This document shows positions 7,288-61,622 of a stretch of DNA of 64,000 nucleotides, in pieces. This stretch comes from Bdellovibrio sp. ZAP7. GTDB taxonomy: Bacteria > Bdellovibrionota_B > Oligoflexia > Oligoflexales > RGVZ01. Each line of letters opens with the position of its first letter. Position 1 is the first letter of the stretch. The notes beneath the pieces were generated by a model. The model was not told where the DNA came from. It saw only the letters and a list, made by a program, of their open reading frames with translations, and searched no databases. Where the stretch lies: positions 31,130 through 95,129 of the forward strand of contig CAMDKS010000008.1 of NCBI GenBank assembly GCA_945900755.1. The letters run 5' to 3'. The position numbers and the translations under genes were made by a program.

Positions 7288-7968
7288 TCAGATCTTGACC
7301 ATCATCGTACTGCGTGCGTACTCGGTGAGCTCAATCTCTTTACCCTTGGTAATTTGATTAATTTTTCGTACTAGCTCGGCAATTCTTAGCATGGCTGTTT
7401 CCGCCTTTTTGTAGGCGACCATATCGTTTTTGCTCATTCCAAGAGATAAATTGCCTAAGGCGATAGCCAGCGGATTATTTATTTCGTGATTAAACGCAAC
7501 AATTAGGGCGTTCATGGCATCGTGTTGCTGACGACGGCTATTTTCTCGGAAAAGATCGCAAACACTTAGCTGGGTATTAATGCGAGCAATAGCCACCTCA
7601 ATATGCACGGGCTTAGCGATATAGTCATTCGCCCCAAGCTGTAGTGCGGAAGCAATATCCTCTGGAGCGTCATTTGAGGTAACCATGATCACAGGAACGA
7701 TGGTTTTTTCAAATTTTTTGCGAATCAGCTTTAGGACTTCAACTCCGTTAATGTCTGGGAGCATGACATCCAGCAGCACAATTTCAGCCCCGCTCGACGC
7801 AATTAAATCCACGACGCCATCTCCGATCAAGTGGGAGACGACTTCAAAGCCACGCTTTACTAGTATCGAGGACAAGATCTTATTATTGACGGTGTCATCA
7901 TCAACCAATAATATTTTCCTAGGCTTAGTTTCGCCAGTAGATTCAATTTTGGTTTTATCTGCAGTCAT
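7288..7968 (-). CDS. response regulator with a DHp-like helix but no ATPase domain
   Basis: Residues 15-135 form a complete receiver: acidic triad VDDD, phospho-Asp in VLLDVMLPDING, and Lys in YIAKPV. After it comes a histidine-kinase H-box sequence, AFNHEINNPLAIALGN, and about 50 more helical residues. The protein then ends at 226 residues without any N, G1 or G2 box, so it cannot bind ATP like a kinase. Its start overlaps the stop of the Hpt gene by four bases (ATGA). Either it is a phosphotransfer protein resembling Spo0B-type DHp proteins, or a receiver with a dimerisation helix. It lies downstream of a predicted sigma-28 promoter and divergent to a kinase with a very similar H-box. Confidence 0.8.
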   Translation of the reverse strand: MTADKTKIESTGETKPRKILLVDDDTVNNKILSSILVKRGFEVVSHLIGDGVVDLIASSGAEIVLLDVMLPDINGVEVLKLIRKKFEKTIVPVIMVTSNDAPEDIASALQLGANDYIAKPVHIEVAIARINTQLSVCDLFRENSRRQQHDAMNALIVAFNHEINNPLAIALGNLSLGMSKNDMVAYKKAETAMLRIAELVRKINQITKGKEIELTEYARSTMMVKI

Positions 7969-8324
7969 TGCGCACCTTTTTTCAGTTGGGATGCCAAAGC
8001 ATTGATTTCAATGGTTAACCCTTCCATCATGGGTTTTAATGTTGCAAAGTTTGTTTCGCTAGCGGTCAAATCGTTGTTTCGACCTTGCTTCTCTAGTTCG
8101 TAGCAAACATCTTTAATCAGCGGTGCCTGAAAGTTGGCCGCCGCGCCCTTCAGCGTGTGTGCGGTAAATTCAAGTGCCTTCGCATCTTTAGAAGTGACCG
8201 CAGCTGCAATAGCAGCAACACTGCTGGGAATTTCAAGTAGGAATGCAGCGCATAGCTCGACGAGTATTTCTTCGTCACCCTTAAACTCTTTCAAGAGTCG
8301 GTCTGTGTCAATATAGTTCGTCAT
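7965..8324 (-). CDS. histidine phosphotransfer (Hpt) domain protein
   Basis: The 119-residue protein is a stand-alone Hpt domain: the phosphoacceptor motif FTAHTLKGAAANFQA sits near the middle and is flanked by the expected helices. It relays phosphoryl groups between a kinase/receiver and a second receiver. It overlaps the receiver/DHp gene by four bases and is the first gene after a predicted sigma-28 promoter (8369-8395), with a leader of about 40 bases. The likely partners are the downstream receiver/DHp protein and the divergent sensor kinase. Confidence 0.85.
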   Translation of the reverse strand: MTNYIDTDRLLKEFKGDEEILVELCAAFLLEIPSSVAAIAAAVTSKDAKALEFTAHTLKGAAANFQAPLIKDVCYELEKQGRNNDLTASETNFATLKPMMEGLTIEINALASQLKKGAQ

Positions 8325-8368
8325 GAGGTTTACCTTTAGTTAGCCGTTAGAATATCGATTCCCTATAC

Positions 8369-8395
8369 TGCTCGGTTGAAACCGATATAACTTGA
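8369..8395 (-). promoter_or_regulatory. predicted sigma-28 (FliA-type) promoter of the Hpt-receiver operon
   Basis: On the minus strand TCAAGTTA is followed by exactly 11 bases and ACCGAGCA. The enterobacterial FliA consensus is TAAAGTTT-N11-GCCGATAA. It points at the Hpt gene, with a predicted leader near 40 bases. Confidence 0.55.
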
Positions 8396-8546
8396 GGGCA
8401 ACTTGTTGGTGAGTTGATAATTGGGCCTGAAACGTAACCGAATCCTGAATAACTAAGCGTTCAAATGTCAAAAAACATATCCGTAATGGCTGCCAATAGG
8501 ATCGATTTTTGGTGGAATGCCAACACCGTGTACTCCACGTCATCCC

Positions 8547-8573
8547 TCAAGTTTTGGGGACGGTCACCGATAA
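8547..8573 (+). promoter_or_regulatory. predicted sigma-28 (FliA-type) promoter of the sensor kinase/TPR operon
   Basis: TCAAGTTT, 11 bases, ACCGATAA: the best match in the window, differing from TAAAGTTT-N11-GCCGATAA at one position in each half. Transcription would start near 8580, about 66 bases before the kinase ATG. Confidence 0.65.
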
Positions 8574-8645
8574 GTGGCGCTAGAGACAGCAGAGCTACAG
8601 GTTGTTTAGGATTTAAAATCTCAATTTGAGGAATCTTCATTTAGT

Positions 8646-10157
8646 ATGACATCGAGTTCATCCCAAAAAACGAAGTTCGTCTCCATCTCCCGAGGATTAA
8701 TTTTTTCGGTTCTGACGACTAGTACGCTTGTAACAAGCGTATTGACAGTCATGCAGGTCGGGTTGGAATATCAGACTAAAAGTAAGGAGATGGATGCACT
8801 CATTGTGACTATGGAGGCAAGCCTAATACCGACGATTAGTGACAGAATGTGGAATCTGGACGCCGACGGAATCAAGTCAACAATGACGCCAATATTGCCG
8901 TCGATGGATGCAAGTTCGATTATACTTAAAAACGACAAAGGTGAGGTTTTGTTCGAGGCGAATATTCCTAACTTTGTTCCTAGTTACCCGATGAAAAAAA
9001 CATTTCCTATTATCAAATCTGATGCGGGAGCAAAAGCAGAGTCCATCGGGCAATTGGAGGTGGTCCTATTTAAGGACAAAATAATTGATGAAGTGCGGAA
9101 TAGGTTTTTGTTTGTTTTGTTTTTGAATTCAATTAAAACAGCCGTCGTTGCCGCAGTGCTGCTGATTATTTTCCATCGTAAAATTGCTGGCCCCATTCTA
9201 GACATTACGAAATATTTTGATAGCCACCGCGACCTAACAAAGGTCGACGGCAAAGACTTTAAGGTCAGTGAACGTGGCGGCACGAACGACGAACTAAGTG
9301 TAATGACGGAACATATCAGGTTGCGGGAGTTGAAGTTGGCCGAATGGTCTGCCCTTCAGCAGGAAAAAATTGAGCGTGCAGAAAGTGCCCTTGCGGAGGC
9401 TGATGAAACCATTCGACAGGAAAAAATAAAAGCTGAAGCCTCTGCCCGTTTGGCTCAGCTCGGAGAGATGGCGACCTCGATTGCCCATGAAATAAATAAT
9501 CCACTAGCGATCATTTCCGGCTACAATTTTTTAATTCGCAAGGAGGCGTCTAAACCTGAAGCGGATATGGCGAAAATTATAAGCACGAATGATTCCGTCG
9601 AACAAACCATAAAAAGAATTACAAAAACAATTACCGGACTTCGATCTTATGCACGAGATGGAGCTTCCGATCCATTTGAAACTTCTGGGATCAATCAGAT
9701 GATCGACGACACCGTTTCTATGGTTGAGACGAGACTCAGGTCCAAGGGAGTCCCGTTGCGTCTCGTGGGTGACAAGACTCAAGATATTCTGATTAGTGGA
9801 CGAGCCGTACAAATTGTACAAGTGTTGGTGGCTATGATTAATAACTCGTGTGATGCGGTTTGTTCCCTTCCTTCCCTTCCTTCTCCCTGGTTAGAGCTCG
9901 AAGTGCAACAAGCAGGGCAAATCGTGAAGATTATTTTGACCGATGCCGGTCCTGGGATTTCTCCTGAAATTGAAGCCAAGATATTTAATCCGTTCTTTTC
10001 CACGAAGCCGGTGGGGCAAGGTACTGGCCTCGGTCTTTCTATTGCTCACGGCATCATCCAAGAGCACGGCGGCAGGATTTTTGTTGATCACTCGTGTAAG
10101 AACACAAGATTTGTGATCGAGCTTCCGCTGGTTGCTGGCGTGCAGAAAACGGCCTGA
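8646..10157 (+). CDS. membrane sensor histidine kinase
   Basis: The 503-residue kinase has transmembrane segments near residues 17-40 and 160-182, with an extracytoplasmic sensor of about 120 residues between them. A HAMP-like linker and a long charged coiled coil follow, then the H-box SIAHEINNPLAIISG (His near 283). The ATPase domain includes DAGPGISPEIEAKIFNPFF and GTGLGLSIAHGI. The sensor shows no motif I recognise. A pseudo-receiver/TPR gene follows after 38 bases, probably in the same transcript. The H-box is nearly the same as in the divergent receiver/DHp protein (HEINNPLAI), which suggests shared partners. Confidence 0.92.
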   Translation: MTSSSSQKTKFVSISRGLIFSVLTTSTLVTSVLTVMQVGLEYQTKSKEMDALIVTMEASLIPTISDRMWNLDADGIKSTMTPILPSMDASSIILKNDKGEVLFEANIPNFVPSYPMKKTFPIIKSDAGAKAESIGQLEVVLFKDKIIDEVRNRFLFVLFLNSIKTAVVAAVLLIIFHRKIAGPILDITKYFDSHRDLTKVDGKDFKVSERGGTNDELSVMTEHIRLRELKLAEWSALQQEKIERAESALAEADETIRQEKIKAEASARLAQLGEMATSIAHEINNPLAIISGYNFLIRKEASKPEADMAKIISTNDSVEQTIKRITKTITGLRSYARDGASDPFETSGINQMIDDTVSMVETRLRSKGVPLRLVGDKTQDILISGRAVQIVQVLVAMINNSCDAVCSLPSLPSPWLELEVQQAGQIVKIILTDAGPGISPEIEAKIFNPFFSTKPVGQGTGLGLSIAHGIIQEHGGRIFVDHSCKNTRFVIELPLVAGVQKTA

Positions 10158-10195: not shown

Positions 10196-11452
10196 GTGAA
10201 TATAACAACTCAATTATCAAATTTTCTTGAAGGTCAGTTTGTGCTGGTCGTTGAGCCGTCTACAAATTATCGGGCCTCGATTAAGGGTTTTTTTACTAAT
10301 TTAAAGCAAAAAAATGTTCGCTATGTTCGTTCTGTCGCCGAAGCTCGGCGTGAAATGCTGGTAATTAAAGTAGGTTTATTTATTGTCGAATGGCAAATGG
10401 CTGACAAAAATGGTCTAGAATTCTGCCGTGAAATTCGTAAGGGATCTCAATTTCAGACAACTCCTTTTTTATTGCTGAGCACCGAAAATATGCATGCTGA
10501 CGTCATCCTTGCGAGCGAGGGTGGGATCAACTCTTACCTGCTCAAGCCTTTTTCATACCCCGATTTTTGTGCTCAACTAACGATTTTAATGCAGAGAAAA
10601 AATTTTCCTTCATCAATCAACGCCTTACTAGAGCGGGCTGATCTTCATTTAAAGCAAAAGGACCTGTGGGTCGCTGAAACACTCTTCAACGAGGCACTGT
10701 CCATGAAGCCGACATCTGCGAAAGCTCTTTGTGGGCTTGGTTGCGTACAAATGGAACGCTCCAACATTCCGTCGGCTCTTAGTTACTTTCGAAAAGCGAT
10801 TGAGAATAATCCAGAGTATGTCGAAAGCTACAAACTCATTTTAGATATAGCCGAAAGTCGCGCTGACCATTTGGGAATTCTGCATTCGGCTTCGATACTG
10901 CATGACTTAAGTCCAGAAAATCCGCGCTATCCCTTGCTTATCGCTTACTCTCAGTTGGAGTTGAACAATCAAATCGAATCAGAAAAATTTTTTAAAATCT
11001 GCATCCGACTGTCACCTCTTGCGGCTTCAGGTCATAAGGGCATTGGAAATCTATATCTAATCCAAAAAGAATTTAAGAAATCCAAGAGGGCCTTGGAGCG
11101 TGCTCTAGATCTTGACTCGACAGATGTCTCCACGCTAAATTCGTTGGGTACTGCGTTAGTTCGGCTTGAAAAATTGGATGAAGGCATTCACAAATATCGC
11201 ATGGCTCTGACCCTGAATGCCTCTGATGCGCGCGTATTGTTTAATCTTGGCCTTGCGCTCGAACTCAAAGGAGACTTGTCCGAGGCCCTTAGCGCCTTTC
11301 GAAGCGCCATGTCTTCGGACCCGAAATATGCCAAGGCTCAAAAGAATATTGATCGGATCGAGGCGTTATTGGCGGTGTCTAAAACGGAGGTCTCACAGAT
11401 TCAAGGGACTTACGATCAAAGTTTTAGTAAAAAAACTAAAAATAGTGCGTAA
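10196..11452 (+). CDS. degenerate receiver domain fused to TPR repeats
   Basis: Residues 15-130 have the receiver fold pattern, but the phospho-Asp position is Glu (LFIVEWQMADKNGLEF) and the acidic pair is replaced by EP (LVVEPSTN). The conserved Lys remains (YLLKPFSYPDF). At least six TPR units follow (for example AKALCGLGCVQMERSNIPSALSYF and ARVLFNLGLALELKGDLSEAL), covering about 145-395. The start is GTG with the strong Shine-Dalgarno AGAGGAG. A receiver with Glu at this position should not be phosphorylated and may sit in a constitutively active state; the TPRs suggest protein binding. It probably forms an operon with the preceding kinase. Confidence 0.88.
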   Translation: MNITTQLSNFLEGQFVLVVEPSTNYRASIKGFFTNLKQKNVRYVRSVAEARREMLVIKVGLFIVEWQMADKNGLEFCREIRKGSQFQTTPFLLLSTENMHADVILASEGGINSYLLKPFSYPDFCAQLTILMQRKNFPSSINALLERADLHLKQKDLWVAETLFNEALSMKPTSAKALCGLGCVQMERSNIPSALSYFRKAIENNPEYVESYKLILDIAESRADHLGILHSASILHDLSPENPRYPLLIAYSQLELNNQIESEKFFKICIRLSPLAASGHKGIGNLYLIQKEFKKSKRALERALDLDSTDVSTLNSLGTALVRLEKLDEGIHKYRMALTLNASDARVLFNLGLALELKGDLSEALSAFRSAMSSDPKYAKAQKNIDRIEALLAVSKTEVSQIQGTYDQSFSKKTKNSA

Positions 11453-11529: not shown

Positions 11530-12204
11530 ATGTCAATCCATTCAGATCAAGCTTCGTTGTATGAGGATCCCTTAATTGGACGTGCCGCAATTGGCGACCA
11601 ATTATTCGTCGGACCGTCCATTGAGGACTTCGATATTGACGGTATGGAATTGTCAGCTGCGGCGCTCGCATTAGGCATTTCCTCGGACGAAGTTTGGCGT
11701 CGAATTCGCAACGGAGTTCTACTTGGACGGACAGTTCAAGGGAAAGTCCTAGTGTACACCGATCTCAAAGTCGTCAGCGACAATCATGCCGATGATTCGC
11801 AGGCGTCAGTGTTCCGAGTTGGGGCCGCAGCAGGGTCAGGACTACCTCCCATACCGACATCCATAAGCAGCCGGTTGGACCCGTCAAACAACACGGCGAG
11901 CACTTTTTTGCTGCCCATTGATGAAGCGTCTACAAGGGGACACCAAGAGATCATGTTACTTATTGATCACTTGAGTCTCGCTAAAGAGGAAAATCGCGAA
12001 ATTCTTCGCCTCACACAAGATGCTATGTCTCGGCTAACGCACATGACCGATGTCATGCTTGATATGAAAGATGCGTTAATTGCCTCAAAAGAAGAACAAA
12101 TGTCGATTCTAAAACTTCGATTGAGCGAACAGTCAGCAGATTTGACCCGGGCGCTCAAAGAAAATGAAGATCTTGAGACGCTCACGATGGCCCTTCAGCA
12201 GTAA
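11530..12204 (+). CDS. uncharacterised protein with helix-turn-helix-like and coiled-coil regions
   Basis: This 224-residue soluble protein has three parts. An acidic N-terminus is followed at about 40-75 by a segment like a MerR/excisionase-type DNA-binding fold (ELSAAALALGISSDEVWRRIRNG, then a GKVLVY beta hairpin). After a variable linker, residues 140-224 form a heptad-rich coiled coil (SLAKEENREILRLTQDAMSRL onward). It follows the TPR gene by 77 bases and may be cotranscribed with it. I do not recognise the family; a DNA-binding or scaffolding protein is possible. Confidence 0.7.
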   Translation: MSIHSDQASLYEDPLIGRAAIGDQLFVGPSIEDFDIDGMELSAAALALGISSDEVWRRIRNGVLLGRTVQGKVLVYTDLKVVSDNHADDSQASVFRVGAAAGSGLPPIPTSISSRLDPSNNTASTFLLPIDEASTRGHQEIMLLIDHLSLAKEENREILRLTQDAMSRLTHMTDVMLDMKDALIASKEEQMSILKLRLSEQSADLTRALKENEDLETLTMALQQ

Positions 12205-12310: not shown

Positions 12311-13549
12311 GTGACTGCTCGTATACATCACATTCGATCAACCGTACTTGTGGCTGGGCTCATGCTGCAGTTATTTTTTGGCGTCCAAGGCCGAGCAGAG
12401 GTACCCGACGGCTATTTGTCGCCTCGCCCCATGGGCATGGGCGGAGCGTTTACCGCAGTTGCAAATGATGAATCTGCTTTTTGGACGAACCCTGCCGGAA
12501 TTGCAAGAGTTCGTAAAGCTCGTAGTCGCGAGGGCGTTCATATTGTTAAATTCCCAAATGCCACAGTTGCAGCGAACAAAGGCAGTCAAAGTATTCTCAA
12601 AGTGATTAATGGCTCATCAACGGACGGCGTCGCGGATGCCATTGCTGCCTCTGATTTAAATTCGTCAAAACCTTTTTATGCACGTGGAGCAGCATTTCCG
12701 GTCATCTTATTCGATGCCGGAAAAAATAATCCAATGGGTTTTGGAGTCTTTCAAAATACGACCATGCGGATTTTTATAGATAAAGATATTCCAACGGACG
12801 CCAGAGTTGTGGCCGTTTCAGACGTGGGAGCAAATTATGGAATAGCTTATTCAAACTTTGCGAATCGCCTGAATTTGGGATTAACCTTGCGACCGACTTA
12901 TCGATACGCCTACGAAGATACGGCTCCCACCAGTGAATTAAAAAGTAAATCAGCTCTTGTAAAACGGATTCAAAAAGGAAGTAACCGCGGAGTTGGCATT
13001 GGGGCCGACGTTGGTTTCCTTTTTACCCTTGCCGACTTTTGGTTTCCAACAATCGGCGTCGCCATTAGAAATCTGCCGACCGGATGTAAGACTGATTACT
13101 TAAATCCAAATACGGAACTGCGCCAGAATATTTGTGGAACCAAATTCTCGGGCTCAGATGGAAACCCTGAAGCACTCTCTGTGATTGATCCCATGGACAC
13201 AAGAATCGGCCTTTCTATTAGCCCACGAATTGCTAGAGAATTTGGAATGCGTTTCACCGGTGACATCCAAAATATCGCCCTCAATTCAGGAAAAGTATTC
13301 TACGGATTGCCCGGAATCGACGCCGCGAAAATGTTGCACGGCGGTATTGAATTCTATTCAGGGAATCCCCTTGAGCGTAGTGCCTTTGCTGTCCAGGTTG
13401 GGGCCAATCAAGGCTTCGTTACTTGGGGTGTTACGGTTAACGCACCATTTGCAAGTCTAGAAATTGCAAGTTATGGAGCAGACCTTAGCACAACCGTAAA
13501 ACGGATTGAGGACAGGCGCTACGTGGCATCGGTGAGCTTTGCGTTATAG
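12311..13549 (+). CDS. outer-membrane beta-barrel protein, PorV/TraF-like
   Basis: The 412-residue product starts at GTG and has a signal peptide (LVAGLMLQLFFGVQGRAEV). The mature N-terminus PRPMGMGGAFTAVANDESAFWTNPAGIA is the signature of the UPF0164/PorV/TraF-like and FadL-like barrel families. Alternating strands follow to the end, and the protein closes with an aromatic/hydrophobic terminal strand (YVASVSFAL) typical of BAM substrates. It lies directly before a lipoprotein gene in the same direction. The exact substrate or role cannot be read from the sequence. Confidence 0.75.
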   Translation: MTARIHHIRSTVLVAGLMLQLFFGVQGRAEVPDGYLSPRPMGMGGAFTAVANDESAFWTNPAGIARVRKARSREGVHIVKFPNATVAANKGSQSILKVINGSSTDGVADAIAASDLNSSKPFYARGAAFPVILFDAGKNNPMGFGVFQNTTMRIFIDKDIPTDARVVAVSDVGANYGIAYSNFANRLNLGLTLRPTYRYAYEDTAPTSELKSKSALVKRIQKGSNRGVGIGADVGFLFTLADFWFPTIGVAIRNLPTGCKTDYLNPNTELRQNICGTKFSGSDGNPEALSVIDPMDTRIGLSISPRIAREFGMRFTGDIQNIALNSGKVFYGLPGIDAAKMLHGGIEFYSGNPLERSAFAVQVGANQGFVTWGVTVNAPFASLEIASYGADLSTTVKRIEDRRYVASVSFAL

Positions 13550-13623: not shown

Positions 13624-14835
13624 ATGAAGAATGCACCTGTTCAATCAATCATTAAGTCACTCGTTAAGTCACTCGTTAAGTCACTCGTGATTTCAGTGAC
13701 TTTTTTGACGTGGTCTATGGCGTATACTTCTTGTGAAACGACCCCTCAAAAACAGGACCGTGAACCTGTTAAAGTTGCGGCCCCCGCGCCCAAACCAGTC
13801 GTGAAGCAAGCCTTGCGACCGATGCCTAAACCCAAGCTCCCAGAGTTCGATTACAATGGATTTTTTTCTAGAATGTCCATTCCAGAAAATGAGTATACCG
13901 AAACAGATCGTCATACTTTAACCAGTTTCCCTCCAAATCCGACAGCGGGCAGCATCCATGAAGCTGCCCTCGTGGTGGGACTTCTGCGCGATGTTTTAAC
14001 GCCATTTGGAATTGAAAGTGCTTCGTTCAAAACAGCAGATACGACACCGCCAACAGCCGTTAATTCTTCAAACCCTAATTCTGTGGTCGTTCCTAGTGGA
14101 GGGGCCCCAGGAAATCCTCCGTCAACACCGCAAGGAGACCTTGCGCGAGTCATTGAAATCCGAGCTCGCACAATGGGAGTGGATATCATTAGTGCTCTAG
14201 CCAGTAACCCCTACTTAAAAAGCCATGGAGTCTATAACATGGCCTCTGATGCGTCGCATATAGACGGCAACAGCCAGATTTTTGTACAAAATCTAGCTAC
14301 AGTGATTAAAAGCGAAGTTCAGATTTGGGCAGATATGTTCCGTAGACTTGGTCTCGATATGCGCCCAGTTGCAGTCGGAGCTGCTGCATCAGATCCAAGT
14401 CCTAGCACTGAGCAGAACCCTGCGCTAGCCACACCACCAGCACCCCTTCCTACTGGCGCTGTGCCATTGACACCGGCGCAAAATGCGCAGGCAGCCAAAC
14501 ATCTCGTCACTGCGCGCGAATTTGCGCAAAGAGAACAATACGAGAGCGCCATCGTGGAATCTCGGAAGGTTCCGCCAGGGGCAGATAATTATGCTGAGTC
14601 TCAAGAACTCACTAAGACCTGGGCGAACAAAGTCGTCCAAACCCTTAGGCAGCAGGCGGCAAGCCAATACTCGGCAGGGCGGAGTAATCCTGACAATGAG
14701 GGTAAGAAAATGAATCTAACGAAATCAAAAATGTTTCTTGAGCAAGCGATTACTAAATTTCCAGAAGCATCCACTCTGGACACAGTCCGAGAGAATTTGG
14801 CCATCATCGATGGCGAAATTGCCCGTTTAATGTGA
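13624..14835 (+). CDS. putative lipoprotein with tandem-repeat signal region
   Basis: The 403-residue product has a hydrophobic N-terminus ending in a plausible lipobox (SMAYTSC). The signal region contains three copies of the four-residue unit KSLV/KSLV/KSLV, encoded by a perfect 12-base tandem repeat (13654-13689). The mature part is Pro/Ala rich, then has a conserved-looking central helical region (about 90-240) and a C-terminal helical region resembling TPR-like helices (TAREFAQREQYESAIVESRKVP). I recognise no family. It follows the outer-membrane barrel gene by 74 bases and may work with it at the outer membrane. Confidence 0.7.
   Translation: MKNAPVQSIIKSLVKSLVKSLVISVTFLTWSMAYTSCETTPQKQDREPVKVAAPAPKPVVKQALRPMPKPKLPEFDYNGFFSRMSIPENEYTETDRHTLTSFPPNPTAGSIHEAALVVGLLRDVLTPFGIESASFKTADTTPPTAVNSSNPNSVVVPSGGAPGNPPSTPQGDLARVIEIRARTMGVDIISALASNPYLKSHGVYNMASDASHIDGNSQIFVQNLATVIKSEVQIWADMFRRLGLDMRPVAVGAAASDPSPSTEQNPALATPPAPLPTGAVPLTPAQNAQAAKHLVTAREFAQREQYESAIVESRKVPPGADNYAESQELTKTWANKVVQTLRQQAASQYSAGRSNPDNEGKKMNLTKSKMFLEQAITKFPEASTLDTVRENLAIIDGEIARLM
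13654..13689 (+). repeat. in-frame 12-base tandem repeat (3 copies)
   Basis: AAGTCACTCGTT occurs three times head to tail, the last copy ending in TG. It lies inside the signal sequence of the lipoprotein gene, so copy-number change would lengthen or shorten the signal by four residues without a frameshift. Confidence 0.9.
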
Positions 14836-44786: not shown

Positions 44787-44907
44787 GCGTTTTAGAATAT
44801 TCCCCAACCGTCGCCAGCGAATCCTGCGGCGACCTCAGCGGGAGCTTCGACGTTTTCCAAAGGTGCATTTGGCAAATCCCCCAAATTTTCATTTGGTCGT
44901 TCGTTTG
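44787..44907 (-). repeat. 3' end of cheA2 duplicated at 40594-40709 (copy A)
   Basis: This is the functional copy, forming the last 38 codons of cheA2. It and copy B are direct repeats bracketing the insert of about 4.1 kb. Confidence 0.9.
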
Positions 44908-47512
44908 CTTGTTCGACTGGTCCATGAGCCAGATTTTTAAGTAGACCTTTGGGGTCAAATGTCTTGAGGATTCCATGCTTATCTAAAACTGAGAACAGAT
45001 CTAAAATCGATACAACTTTACCATTTACGTCGATGGTGCCAGCAATTTCATCGCGGTCTCGGACGCTAACATCAATGGTTAGTGGTGCGAGGCAGACATC
45101 CTTTATTTCATGAATCATGAATGCAACATAGCGATCATGAATCATAATCACGAACACGGGTACAGGATCTTGCCCGGCTTGAGCGACCCTATCGGTGACG
45201 GTGAGATGCACGGCATCGGTTAGATCAATGAGTGGTACGGTTTGCTCGCGGTAAATGAGCACTTGTCGGCCACCAATAGACTGGAACGACTTGCGTGGGA
45301 ATTCCTCGAGACGGTGGATCATGGACAGGGGGACTCCGAATAGGCCTCCACACCAGAGATCGAACAATAGAATTTCTTGAGTTTTGATTTCGGAATCTTG
45401 GACCGCTTCGTCGTCTGCGCTTGCACCCGCCAAATGGGCGTCATTGACGCCCGCACATTCTGCCAATCCTTCTGCGCTCAAAATAAGGCCAACCCGGCCG
45501 TCACCCATAAACGTCGCTCCGGCGTATACTTTTGCAGCCTCCAAAAATTTGCCAACCGCTTTAACGACAATTTCTTCACTATCAAGAATCTGATCCACCG
45601 CTAACGCAAAGAGAGAGTTCTCACTCTTGACGATGAGGATGTTCTGCAGGTCGCATTTCAGAAAGTTGATGCTTCCCTTAGGGCGCAGTCCTAAGGTTTC
45701 TCCTAGATCCGTGACGGGGATCAGTTCGTCTTCGTAATCAAGGACAAAAGCACCCTCCAGTTGTTTGATTAATGTTGCGATTCTAGCGCCTTCAAGACGG
45801 TACAAGCGGGCAATTTTGTCTTGTGGAATAGCAAAATTACTGCCTGCAGCCTCCACCACCAACGAACTAATAATCATCACTGATTTTGGAATGGGCATCT
45901 GGAGGGCAAAGGTCGTGCCTTTACCTAAGTCCGACTCGATATTGATTCGACCTTTAACCTTTTGGATCGAGGCCCGCACCATATCCATTCCTACGCCGCG
46001 GCCCGACACGTCAGTCACTTTGGCTGCGGTAGAAAATCCGGATTCAAATATTAGTGAGAAAACTTTTTGCGGTGATAACTTTTCAACGTCGGCAGCAGAG
46101 TATAGCCCTCGCTCTACGGCCTTATTTTTTATCATGGTTTGGTTTAGCCCGCCGCCATCGTCTTGGATGCTGATAACCACCTGATCATTGGCCTCAACAG
46201 CGCGAATAAAAATTGTACCCTCGGCCTTCTTCTTGCGCTCAAGCCTTTTTTCTTTGGCTTCAATGCCGTGATCGAGGGAATTTCTGACAATATGAACCAG
46301 TGAATCTGAGAGTGCTTGGGCTAATGAGGTATCGACTCTGAGGTCTTCCCCGTCAATTTTGAGATTGATGGTCTTGCCCAAAGAACGGGCCGTATCTCGT
46401 ACGGTTCTTGGCAGTGATCGGAAGACTTTGGTCAACGGAACCTTTCTGGTTTCCGTTAATTGCACCTGCATGCCACTGTTTATTTTGTGCATCTCATCAA
46501 GGAGCACTCCAAGTTGCTGTACATTGCGATTGCCCGGCATTTCCTTTTCAATCACGCGCACCAATTTATTGACCATGTTGCGAATGACCGTAATCTCCCC
46601 AGAAAGCTCCATAAATTGATCCAGCATTGCCGCAGGCACACTAACCGTTTCCTTTCCGCCAGCTTTGGATGTATCCCCAGCCGTCGCCGTATCTGCTGTG
46701 GCTCCGGCATTCGCCGACTTTTCGTTGGCAACACCAGTCACATCAAAAATTTTGGCCAGCTCTTCTACATTGCCTGTCCACGCCTCACCTCGGCGAAGGC
46801 CGCCGATCATTTGCCCAACTACATCAAAGCCTTTGAGCAAGATGGAAACAATTTCTGGCGTAGCCGTCATCGCTCCATTTTTTAGTTTCGAGAGTAAATC
46901 TTCATATTTATGCACATAGGAGCGAATGTGTGTTGAATCGAGTACGCCGCTCGATCCTTTTATAGTATGAACGAGGCGGAAAATCGTGTTGAGAGTTTCC
47001 ATGTCGCGAGGCTTTTTTTCCATGTCCATTATGAGGGGCTCCAGTTCCTCAACAATGGCGGAAGATTCCTCAATAAATGTTTGCTCCAGCATGATGCGTT
47101 CACGAATCAAGGACTCGCGTTCTGCTGCGTGTTTTTTAATTTCAGCATGTATGGTCGCCGTGGTGGAGGGTTTGCTGAGGAATGCCAAGACCTTTAGGTC
47201 AATGCCTGCAAGAACCTGTTCCTTAGTAATAAATCCGGAAATGATGATGAAAGGAATATCCTTGAATGTTGGCATCATTGCGGCGCGAAGCTCCAAGCCG
47301 TTCATCCCAGGCATCTTGAAGTCAGAGACGACGCAAACGATTTCCGGGCCAAACTCTTTGAGTTTTAGTAGGGCCTCGGCCCCCGTCGAAGCGTATATGC
47401 CATCGTACATGTCAGAGCAGGAATCAAGGACCAGGTCTCCGATATCCTTTTCATCGTCGACCACCAGTAGCTTTAATTTTGAAGTAAGATCTAATTTTTT
47501 TGCTGCACCCAT
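44792..47512 (-). CDS. cheA: hybrid chemotaxis kinase CheA (copy 2) with N-terminal receiver
   Basis: The 906-residue protein starts with a receiver (LLVVDDEKDIGDLV, VVSDFKMPGMNGLEL, FLSKPSTT, about 10-130). An Hpt follows (VHTIKGSSGVLDSTHI, about 140-235), then dimerisation and ATPase domains (SLVHIVRNSLDHGIE, QDDGGGLNQTMI, GRGVGMDMVRAS) and two CheW-like domains (about 590-720 and 740-870). The tail ends LENVEAPAEVAAGFAGDGWG. The receiver is N-terminal here and C-terminal in CheA1. A strong AGGAGG precedes the ATG, and a predicted sigma-28 promoter lies 28 bases upstream. The accessory insert begins right at its stop codon. Confidence 0.94.
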   Translation of the reverse strand: MGAAKKLDLTSKLKLLVVDDEKDIGDLVLDSCSDMYDGIYASTGAEALLKLKEFGPEIVCVVSDFKMPGMNGLELRAAMMPTFKDIPFIIISGFITKEQVLAGIDLKVLAFLSKPSTTATIHAEIKKHAAERESLIRERIMLEQTFIEESSAIVEELEPLIMDMEKKPRDMETLNTIFRLVHTIKGSSGVLDSTHIRSYVHKYEDLLSKLKNGAMTATPEIVSILLKGFDVVGQMIGGLRRGEAWTGNVEELAKIFDVTGVANEKSANAGATADTATAGDTSKAGGKETVSVPAAMLDQFMELSGEITVIRNMVNKLVRVIEKEMPGNRNVQQLGVLLDEMHKINSGMQVQLTETRKVPLTKVFRSLPRTVRDTARSLGKTINLKIDGEDLRVDTSLAQALSDSLVHIVRNSLDHGIEAKEKRLERKKKAEGTIFIRAVEANDQVVISIQDDGGGLNQTMIKNKAVERGLYSAADVEKLSPQKVFSLIFESGFSTAAKVTDVSGRGVGMDMVRASIQKVKGRINIESDLGKGTTFALQMPIPKSVMIISSLVVEAAGSNFAIPQDKIARLYRLEGARIATLIKQLEGAFVLDYEDELIPVTDLGETLGLRPKGSINFLKCDLQNILIVKSENSLFALAVDQILDSEEIVVKAVGKFLEAAKVYAGATFMGDGRVGLILSAEGLAECAGVNDAHLAGASADDEAVQDSEIKTQEILLFDLWCGGLFGVPLSMIHRLEEFPRKSFQSIGGRQVLIYREQTVPLIDLTDAVHLTVTDRVAQAGQDPVPVFVIMIHDRYVAFMIHEIKDVCLAPLTIDVSVRDRDEIAGTIDVNGKVVSILDLFSVLDKHGILKTFDPKGLLKNLAHGPVEQANERPNENLGDLPNAPLENVEAPAEVAAGFAGDGWGIF

Positions 47513-47539: not shown

Positions 47540-47566
47540 TGTTCGGCCTAGCGAAGGATTACTTTA
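47540..47566 (-). promoter_or_regulatory. predicted sigma-28 (FliA-type) promoter of cheA2
   Basis: On the minus strand TAAAGTAA, exactly 11 bases, GCCGAACA. It gives a leader of about 22 bases to the cheA2 ATG. Confidence 0.6.

Positions 47567-54216: not shown

Positions 54217-54217
<1 letters not shown>
54097..54217 (-). repeat. palindromic repeat element, copy 2 (inverted)
   Basis: The reverse complement closely matches copy 1, with an identical core of about 35 bases (around GCTCAGCTACCGAAGTAGCC) and diverged arms. The ends again pair with each other (GATTGTGC ... GCACAATC). It runs one base into the stop codon of the DUF342 gene. Confidence 0.85.
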
Positions 54218-56589
<2,372 letters not shown>

Positions 56590-56621: not shown

Positions 56622-56648
56622 ACATCGTCACGACTAGCTAAAACTTTA
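56622..56648 (-). promoter_or_regulatory. predicted sigma-28 (FliA-type) promoter of the DUF342 gene
   Basis: On the minus strand TAAAGTTT (perfect), exactly 11 bases, GACGATGT. It predicts a leader of about 27 bases to the DUF342 start. Confidence 0.55.
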
Positions 56649-59422: not shown

Positions 59423-61321
59423 TTAAACTTCGATTTTCTTGACTAACGCCTCAAGACGCTCGGCCAGTTGACCGAGGGACTTGGCAGCATCCAGCACTTG
59501 ATTGGCGCCACTTGCGGTCTCACTTGAGGCCGTGGACACGGTCTTGACGCTTTCAGAAATCGATTGAATGCCTTTTGAGGACTCTTGAATGACGCGAGCC
59601 ACTTCGTTGGTGGTGGCTTGTTGTTCCTCTACCGAAGCGGCGATTGCAGATGCAATACCATTTAGCTTACGAATACTCTCGGTGATACCGCCGATGGCTT
59701 CAACAGCGGTACTTGCATCTCCTTGAATAACTCCAATTCGGTTGGTGATGTCCTCTGTTGCTTGGGCCGTTTGTTTCGCCAGTTCTTTTACTTCGTTCGC
59801 AACCACTGCGAAGCCTCGGCCCGCATCTCCAGCTCGTGCGGCCTCGATAGTTGCATTCAGAGCAAGAAGGTTCGTTTGCTGTGCGATGGATGAAATTACT
59901 TTAATGACGTTTCCAATTTCTTGACTTGATACGCCAAGTTTCGTAATCGTCGTGTTGGTGCTTTCCGCCTGACGCACTGTCGTGTTAGCGGCTGAGGCAG
60001 CTTCATTGGCGTTACGAGCAATTTCATTAATTGAAGCCGTCATCTCCTCAGTATTGGTGGCCACAGTCTGAACTCCGCGAGCAACTTCCTCCGAAGAGCC
60101 CGCTACCTGATTCGCTTCTTTGGTGGTTTTACCCGCGTTCGCGGTCATTTGAGTGGCCGTCGCATTAAGTTCAGCGGCAGCAGCTGACAAATGACGACTC
60201 GCTTCTGAGATGTCGGTTTGCAGTAGCACTTGGTTGGTAACAACTTCCCAAGTAACCATCGGGCCAATGTACTCCTTATTACTATTATACATAGGAGCAA
60301 CGAGGAGGCTTAAGGTCTCGGGCCCAAGTCTAATCTTAGAACGCATCGGTAGCTGACGGTCGTCCTTGGTGATTCGGCGTTGGTGATCTGGGTTCTTGTG
60401 GAAAATATCAATTTTTTGGCCGAGCAGCTGGTCAACTGGTTTAGGCAAGAGCTTTTCTAGTGTCCGAAGTGTTTTGATCGTGGCAGGATTCATGTACTTA
60501 ATATCGAATTCCAAGTCAGCACACATGATGTTTATTGGAGCATTTTCGATCATTGAGTTGATCCGAGCCAAGTCATTTTCGAGAGCGAGTTTTTTGGTGA
60601 CGACGTCCCAGGTGACCATCGCGCCAATATATTTTTTTGATTGGTCATAAATAGCGGTCACGAGAAGATCCAATTTCTCTGGGCCGAGCTGAATGATGGA
60701 GCGAATGGGCAGATTACGGTCATCGCCAACAAGTCTTCTTTGATGATCAGGTTTTTTGTGAAAAACATCGATGCTTATACCCATTAGCTTGTCCACAGTT
60801 ATGGGCATGTATTTTTCGAGAGTTTTGAGGGTTTCTTTGGACTTTGGATTCACGAATTGAATATTGAAATCGCGATCGCAATAAAGAATGTTGATCGGTG
60901 AATTTTCTGTCATCGATTGAATTCGAGCCAAATTTAACTCATTTTGTAGTTTTTGAGTAACGATATCCCAAGTGACCATCGTTCCTATAAATTTTTTGTC
61001 AAGGTCGTAGATCGCAGAGACAAGCAAGTCCAATTTTTCAGGTCCAACTTGTATAATAGCGCGGTGGGGAAGGTTTTTGTCTGAAGATAACAGCTTGCGT
61101 TGGTGCGCTGGATTTTTGTGAAAAACATCGATAATTGCACCTTGTACTTTGTTGGCTGGCACGGGCAACAGTTTTTCAATAGTCGTCAAAGTCTCAAGGC
61201 TTTTTGGGTTGACGTACGTCACGACGAAATTTAAATCTGCGTAAAGTACATTGACTGGAGCATTCTCCAACATACTCATGGACTCTGCGCCGGTGAGAGA
61301 ACTTTTTAACAGGTCATTCAT
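59423..61321 (-). CDS. soluble methyl-accepting chemotaxis protein with three PAS repeats
   Basis: From the ATG at 61321 (AAGGA upstream) the product is 632 residues without a membrane segment. Three tandem PAS-like repeats of about 118 residues fill the first 370. Each starts with [14 protein letters not shown] or a variant, contains [14 protein letters not shown] and ends MVTWDIVT. A helical region and the signalling domain follow, with the MCP hairpin tip ([41 protein letters not shown]). It senses an internal signal, perhaps redox or a small ligand, and controls CheA. A predicted sigma-28 promoter lies upstream; pfk converges on it. Confidence 0.92.
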
Positions 61322-61622
61322 TTTTGTTTCCTTTTGTGCTGCGTGCACCATATCCAAAATTGTTTCAAATTTTCACGACGAAGAGAGTTAACTGTTTTAC
61401 GAACCTGTGATCGGTAATTCTTTGTATTACTTTAGCAGGTGCAAATATGTAAACGCAAGTGTGCCGTATATAATTGCGCAAATAGTTAATCTTGGGAACC
61501 TCTGTAAACTATATTTACTTTGCCCGTTCAATTTTTAAAATCGTTTTGAGTCAGTTTCGGAGCGGGCCGCCCCCCTAGAAAGTGTTCGTAGGCCAGAACG
61601 ATTTGTACTATTATGATACGAC
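61322..61622. other. divergent region between the mcp and the ATP-grasp fusion gene
   Basis: About 300 bases, AT rich apart from a GC-rich patch (GGGCCGCCCCCC) near 61564. It carries the sigma-28 site for mcp on the minus strand and a weak sigma-28-like site (61578-61604) pointing to the plus-strand gene. No gene is seen. Confidence 0.5.
61408..61434 (-). promoter_or_regulatory. predicted sigma-28 (FliA-type) promoter of the mcp gene
   Basis: On the minus strand TAAAGTAA, exactly 11 bases, ACCGATCA. The upstream element is identical to that of cheA2. The leader to the chosen ATG is about 81 bases. Confidence 0.62.

Follow-up and report, generated by a model that had tools for sequence, protein, structure and literature searches.

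Divergent FliA-type sites predicted to serve a sensor kinase/TPR operon and an Hpt/REC-DHp gene pair in an uncultured Oligoflexales bacterium

In the genome of an uncultured Oligoflexales bacterium (2.9 Mb in 65 contigs), the 321-bp gap between an Hpt phosphotransfer gene and a sensor histidine kinase gene (8325-8645) contains two 27-bp sites of the FliA (sigma-28) type that point in opposite directions. We consider it probable that the two act as divergent FliA promoters, one serving the kinase gene and a pseudo-receiver/TPR gene behind it and the other serving the Hpt and REC-DHp genes, and that the TPR protein is a scaffold outside the phosphorelay. The features are given below by their positions in the window, which is the whole 64,000-nucleotide stretch that was analyzed.

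7288-7968, minus strand: REC-DHp protein, 226 aa (PF00072, 1e-23; HisKA 20.3 bits, below its cut-off)
7965-8324, minus strand: Hpt phosphotransfer protein, 119 aa (Pfam PF01627, E 3.3e-15)
8369-8395, minus strand: predicted weaker FliA-like promoter on the Hpt side, TCAAGTTA-TATCGGTTTCA-ACCGAGCA, 11-base spacer
8547-8573, plus strand: predicted FliA (sigma-28) promoter on the kinase side, TCAAGTTT-TGGGGACGGTC-ACCGATAA, 11-base spacer
8646-10157, plus strand: membrane sensor histidine kinase, 503 aa, with HisKA and HATPase_c and no receiver domain
10196-11452, plus strand: pseudo-receiver-TPR protein, 418 aa, with Glu (VEW) in place of the phospho-Asp
11530-12204, plus strand: 224-aa protein with no Pfam match, kept downstream of the TPR gene in the genus
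12311-13549, plus strand: outer-membrane barrel-like protein with weak FadL/TraF_2/PorV matches, a conserved neighbour
13624-14835, plus strand: 403-aa protein with no family match, a conserved neighbour

Both sites are present, with the exact 11-base spacing between the boxes that a sequence-only reading of this DNA had described, and the orientation it gave also holds: the minus site faces the Hpt and receiver genes (45 bp before the Hpt ATG) and the plus site faces the kinase and TPR genes (73 bp before the kinase ATG). Of the 16 consensus letters, a count by eye finds 14 in the plus site and 11 in the minus site. A joint pattern, which was derived from the two sites themselves, occurs twice in the window and in none of 100 dinucleotide shuffles, so that a similar site density in shuffled sequence, which would have spoken against the sites, was not found. 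The assignment to sigma-28 agrees with the genome, which encodes one clear copy of FliA (TIGR02479, 269.7 bits against a curated cut-off of 189.6) together with seven flagellin matches, three MCPs and one MotA, and with the window's other top sites, which front motility and chemotaxis genes. In an Rfam scan no RNA element was seen in the gap, the single match in the window being a tRNA, and the terminator-like scan gave counts at the level of shuffled sequence. It was also observed that a perfect inverted repeat, TCGGTT-TC-AACCGA, overlaps the -10 box of the minus site (8369-8395); it is a possible operator.

The two sites were scored with a larger FliA matrix trained on 22 further FliA-like sites from this genome, with the window's two sites left out. 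The plus site reaches 20.3 bits, a score expected 0.02 times per 64 kb when both strands are counted; the minus site reaches 13.8 bits (0.89 expected on the same basis), compared with 14.2 bits for the site of an MCP gene in the window and 12.8 bits for a flagellin site. Because most of the 22 training sites had been picked by their similarity to the consensus, a small motility-only matrix was built from six sites, three at flagellin and three at MCP genes, one of the latter lying just inside the ORF as called. With this matrix the plus site scores 15.8 bits, within the range of the training sites (15.0-19.4), and the minus site 11.8 bits, below every one of them; the chance expectation at these scores in a 321-bp gap and one orientation is 0.0003 and 0.008, respectively. 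A matrix from the genome's own flagellin and mot promoters had been proposed as a check; the one built here from flagellin and MCP sites is in favor of the plus site and leaves the minus site below the training range.

The placement of such sites was found to be far from random. All five of the window's best larger-matrix matches lie 28-73 bp 5' of a same-strand gene (P about 9e-8), namely a FapA-like gene, this kinase, an MCP, this Hpt and a CheA-like gene. The three outside the gap are:

56622-56648, minus strand: FliA-matrix match of 21.2 bits, the best of the window, 33 bp upstream of gene 54217-56589, which has a Flagellar Assembly Protein A domain (FapA)
61408-61434, minus strand: FliA-like site, 51 bp upstream of the MCP gene 59423-61357
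47540-47566, minus strand: FliA-like site, 28 bp upstream of the CheA-like gene 44792-47512, which has a receiver at its N-terminus

In the whole genome, 30 sites with no more than two mismatches were fetched, a set that includes the plus site and whose placement comes from pattern searches and fetched loci; 20 of them sit 29-109 bp before a same-strand ORF, compared with 3.9% expected by chance (P 1e-21). The genes behind these sites include an MCP, two histidine kinases, a receiver protein, a Lon-like protein and an M23 peptidase. Looser matches with up to three mismatches were left unused, since a reversed-pattern control is only modestly lower (77 matches, against 127 with the true pattern). 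Based on the matrix scores and the non-random placement, the promoter reading is well supported by sequence for the plus side and plausible for the minus side.

Some observations count against the divergent promoters. Many of the sites that FliA binds in E. coli, chiefly those within genes, are without a detectable transcript (PMC4183435), and under the larger matrix four of the seven flagellins and motA have no site near their starts. One alternative is that FliA works from the plus site alone, the minus site being a chance match or a decayed one, and that Hpt and REC-DHp are expressed from another sigma factor. The number of matches expected by chance at the minus site's larger-matrix score, its place below all motility-only training sites and the lack of a correctly spaced counterpart upstream of the Hpt gene in the relative G005 all fit this alternative. 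Against it, the site is correctly oriented, close to the Hpt start codon, and scores near the MCP site and above a flagellin site; we regard the alternative as rather unlikely, though to be taken seriously.

Divergent promoters can also be judged from the relatives, where the comparison within the genus covers five other genomes. Orthologues of the TPR gene were found across the order at 33-56% identity, the closest in MAGs labelled Oligoflexales or Pseudobacteriovorax; the same-class genomes include a MAG labelled Silvanigrella. The gene is preceded by a FliA-like site of 11-17 bits in four genomes (G001, G002, G004, and G013) and a weaker one of 7.6-9.8 bits in four more (G005, G026, G035, and G037); no FliA-like site was found upstream of it in G010, G036, G039, and G054. 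A site of 7.5 bits or more is carried by 8 of 14 TPR-orthologue upstream regions; of 99 further upstream regions in these loci, 4 carry one (Fisher 2e-6; rank test 4e-5; with the genus left out, 0.003). Next to the TPR gene of G001 and G005 is a divergent gene pair (L119 3755-7325; L121 6966-10557) encoding proteins of ~600 aa each, which are ABC exporter subunits in G005, and no kinase lies between the promoter and the TPR gene. This exporter-type pair occupies the place of the window's kinase and Hpt/REC-DHp genes. Since the FliA-like sites in relatives are directly upstream of the TPR gene, the conserved unit would be a FliA-driven pseudo-receiver/TPR operon, with the kinase behind its promoter peculiar to the genome studied here. 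Most likely the ancestral promoter belonged to this operon, the kinase gene having come in behind the promoter in this lineage. Downstream, the order of the 224-aa, barrel-like and 403-aa genes is conserved in the genus; the extent of the operon and the kinase insertion are both inferred.

In Oligoflexus-labelled MAGs the TPR-gene site is absent, yet FliA was matched. Loss of the site through loss of FliA was considered and dropped, because the FliA matches are present there. Oligoflexus tunisiensis is described as non-motile (PMC5154148).

The other genes of the locus have a different distribution. No kinase orthologue was found at the corresponding locus in the five other genomes of the genus, where the only full-length match, 32% identical, lies elsewhere in G004. 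The distant kinase homologues (G004 and G025) adjoin unrelated genes and show no FliA-like site above 4 bits upstream. The Hpt/REC-DHp pair occurs in one of the five other genus genomes; it is syntenic in G005 and adjacent in G017. In G044 the gene order is a HisKA-HATPase-receiver protein, Hpt and REC-DHp, and in G051 kinase, receiver and Hpt are fused as one protein, followed by REC-DHp. By these comparisons, Hpt and REC-DHp are a recurring relay pair, with a hybrid kinase preceding it in same-class genomes. The divergent arrangement that was to be looked for in related genomes is not kept, as the four genes do not stay together and only Hpt and REC-DHp remain paired. In three same-class loci (L105 1471-3631; L106 1-2142; L113 1-2148) a HisKA-HATPase-receiver protein was seen to precede the REC-DHp gene; Hpt has a gene of its own in L105 and is fused in L106.

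Analysis of the protein sequences indicates intact phosphorylation sites and catalytic residues in three of the proteins. The kinase has all of its H, N, G1, and G2 boxes, and the Hpt protein has its HxxKG histidine at residue 56 (HTLKG). In REC-DHp, whose gene overlaps that of Hpt by 4 bp, the receiver residues, D and K among them, are nearly invariant across 11 homologues, and His-161 in the NHxIN motif (here NHEIN) is invariant in them. In REC-DHp a HisKA-like helix pair comes after a canonical receiver, and as the protein has no ATPase domain it may hand the phosphate on, work as a phosphatase, or form dimers; in the 60 solved structures listed for its profile the best stretch always stops near the receiver. 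In the TPR protein, Glu-65 takes the place of the phospho-Asp and Pro-21 replaces one of the acidic pair, both invariant in all 14 orthologues. Because of this Glu the protein cannot be phosphorylated at that position, and it is most readily understood as a non-phosphorylatable scaffold that stands outside the relay. The kinase, lacking a receiver, could not feed Hpt directly under the usual His-to-Asp rule, and the order of phosphotransfer is not fixed by sequence; it could phosphorylate the receiver of REC-DHp.

These results bear on the proposal of the sequence-only reading that the Hpt, REC-DHp, kinase and TPR proteins form one dedicated phosphorelay expressed with the late flagellar genes. 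Adjacent genes behind divergent promoters of one type, the intact residues of kinase, Hpt and REC-DHp and the synteny of Hpt/REC-DHp in G005 would fit it. Yet the altered receiver of the TPR protein and the relatives' locus, with an ABC exporter pair instead of the kinase, make it improbable. What survives of the proposed phosphorelay is the relay pair; neither a TPR protein within the relay nor a conserved module of four genes does. The weakest alternative, that FliA uses neither site, the resemblance being incidental, and that a sigma-70 type promoter serves the genes, can point to a weak sigma-70-like pair in the gap (plus strand, 8392-8421), but such pairs are about as frequent in shuffled sequence (12.3, against 13 observed) and the placement of the FliA-type sites is far from random, which makes it very unlikely.

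With two divergent FliA promoters, the plus promoter would drive the kinase, the pseudo-receiver/TPR gene and probably the downstream envelope genes, and the weaker minus promoter would drive the overlapping Hpt and REC-DHp genes. When FliA is active, the products of both sides would be made alongside the late flagellar and chemotaxis genes. Phosphate could then flow from the kinase to the REC domain of REC-DHp; by another route, a hybrid kinase encoded elsewhere could phosphorylate Hpt, which would exchange phosphate with REC-DHp.

The class 3 flagellar promoters of E. coli and Salmonella have the consensus TAAAGTTT-N11-GCCGATAA, as quoted in the sequence-only reading. The sites described here resemble them in box sequences, 11-base spacing and distance to the start codon, and differ in a -10 box that begins with A where the consensus has G, and in TCAAG at -35; also, the genes behind them are sensory and not structural flagellar genes. 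The HxxKG motif, the canonical receiver, the overlapping adjacent genes and the upstream hybrid kinase in G044 are all as in His-Asp phosphorelays with a separate Hpt. Unlike in such phosphorelays, the receiver bears a C-terminal DHp-like helix pair with no ATPase domain and the kinase has no receiver. Replacement of Asp by Glu, as in the TPR protein, was described as common in bacterial pseudo-receivers (PMC12632262); unlike the reviewed ones, this pseudo-receiver is fused to TPR repeats and is conserved across Oligoflexales families.

The closest parallel is found in Bdellovibrio, where FliA-type sites are in 92 of 140 attack-phase promoters, many of them non-flagellar (PMC3627812), and a reporter in E. 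coli demonstrated that FliA controls a pilus operon (PMC5430801). In Bdellovibrio bacteriovorus the site is TTAAG-N16-CCGATA and precedes non-flagellar genes that include chemotaxis proteins (PMC3627812; PMC5430801). Like this broad regulon, the genome studied here has many FliA sites before non-flagellar genes, and our results fit an extension of the Bdellovibrio regulon to Oligoflexales. Unlike B. bacteriovorus, the organism is an Oligoflexales MAG, known here from motifs alone, and its divergent pair lies at kinase and Hpt genes. That FliA also controls genes other than flagellar ones had already been established in Bdellovibrio (PMC3627812). Our literature search found no paper on Silvanigrella with FliA and none on flagellar sigma factors in Oligoflexia.

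A wider reading, which we offer tentatively and hold as possible but doubtful, is that the FliA of Oligoflexales, like that of Bdellovibrio, controls a broad programme of sensory and envelope functions. The order-wide, Glu-invariant pseudo-receiver/TPR protein would be a core member of this programme, gaining here its own kinase under the same promoter, with an unusual Hpt/REC-DHp relay under the divergent one. If this is true, wide non-flagellar use of FliA would be shared with, or have re-arisen in, a neighbouring and largely uncultured class, a conserved pseudo-receiver/TPR protein would be tied to the motile phase, and a concrete set of promoters would be supplied for testing.
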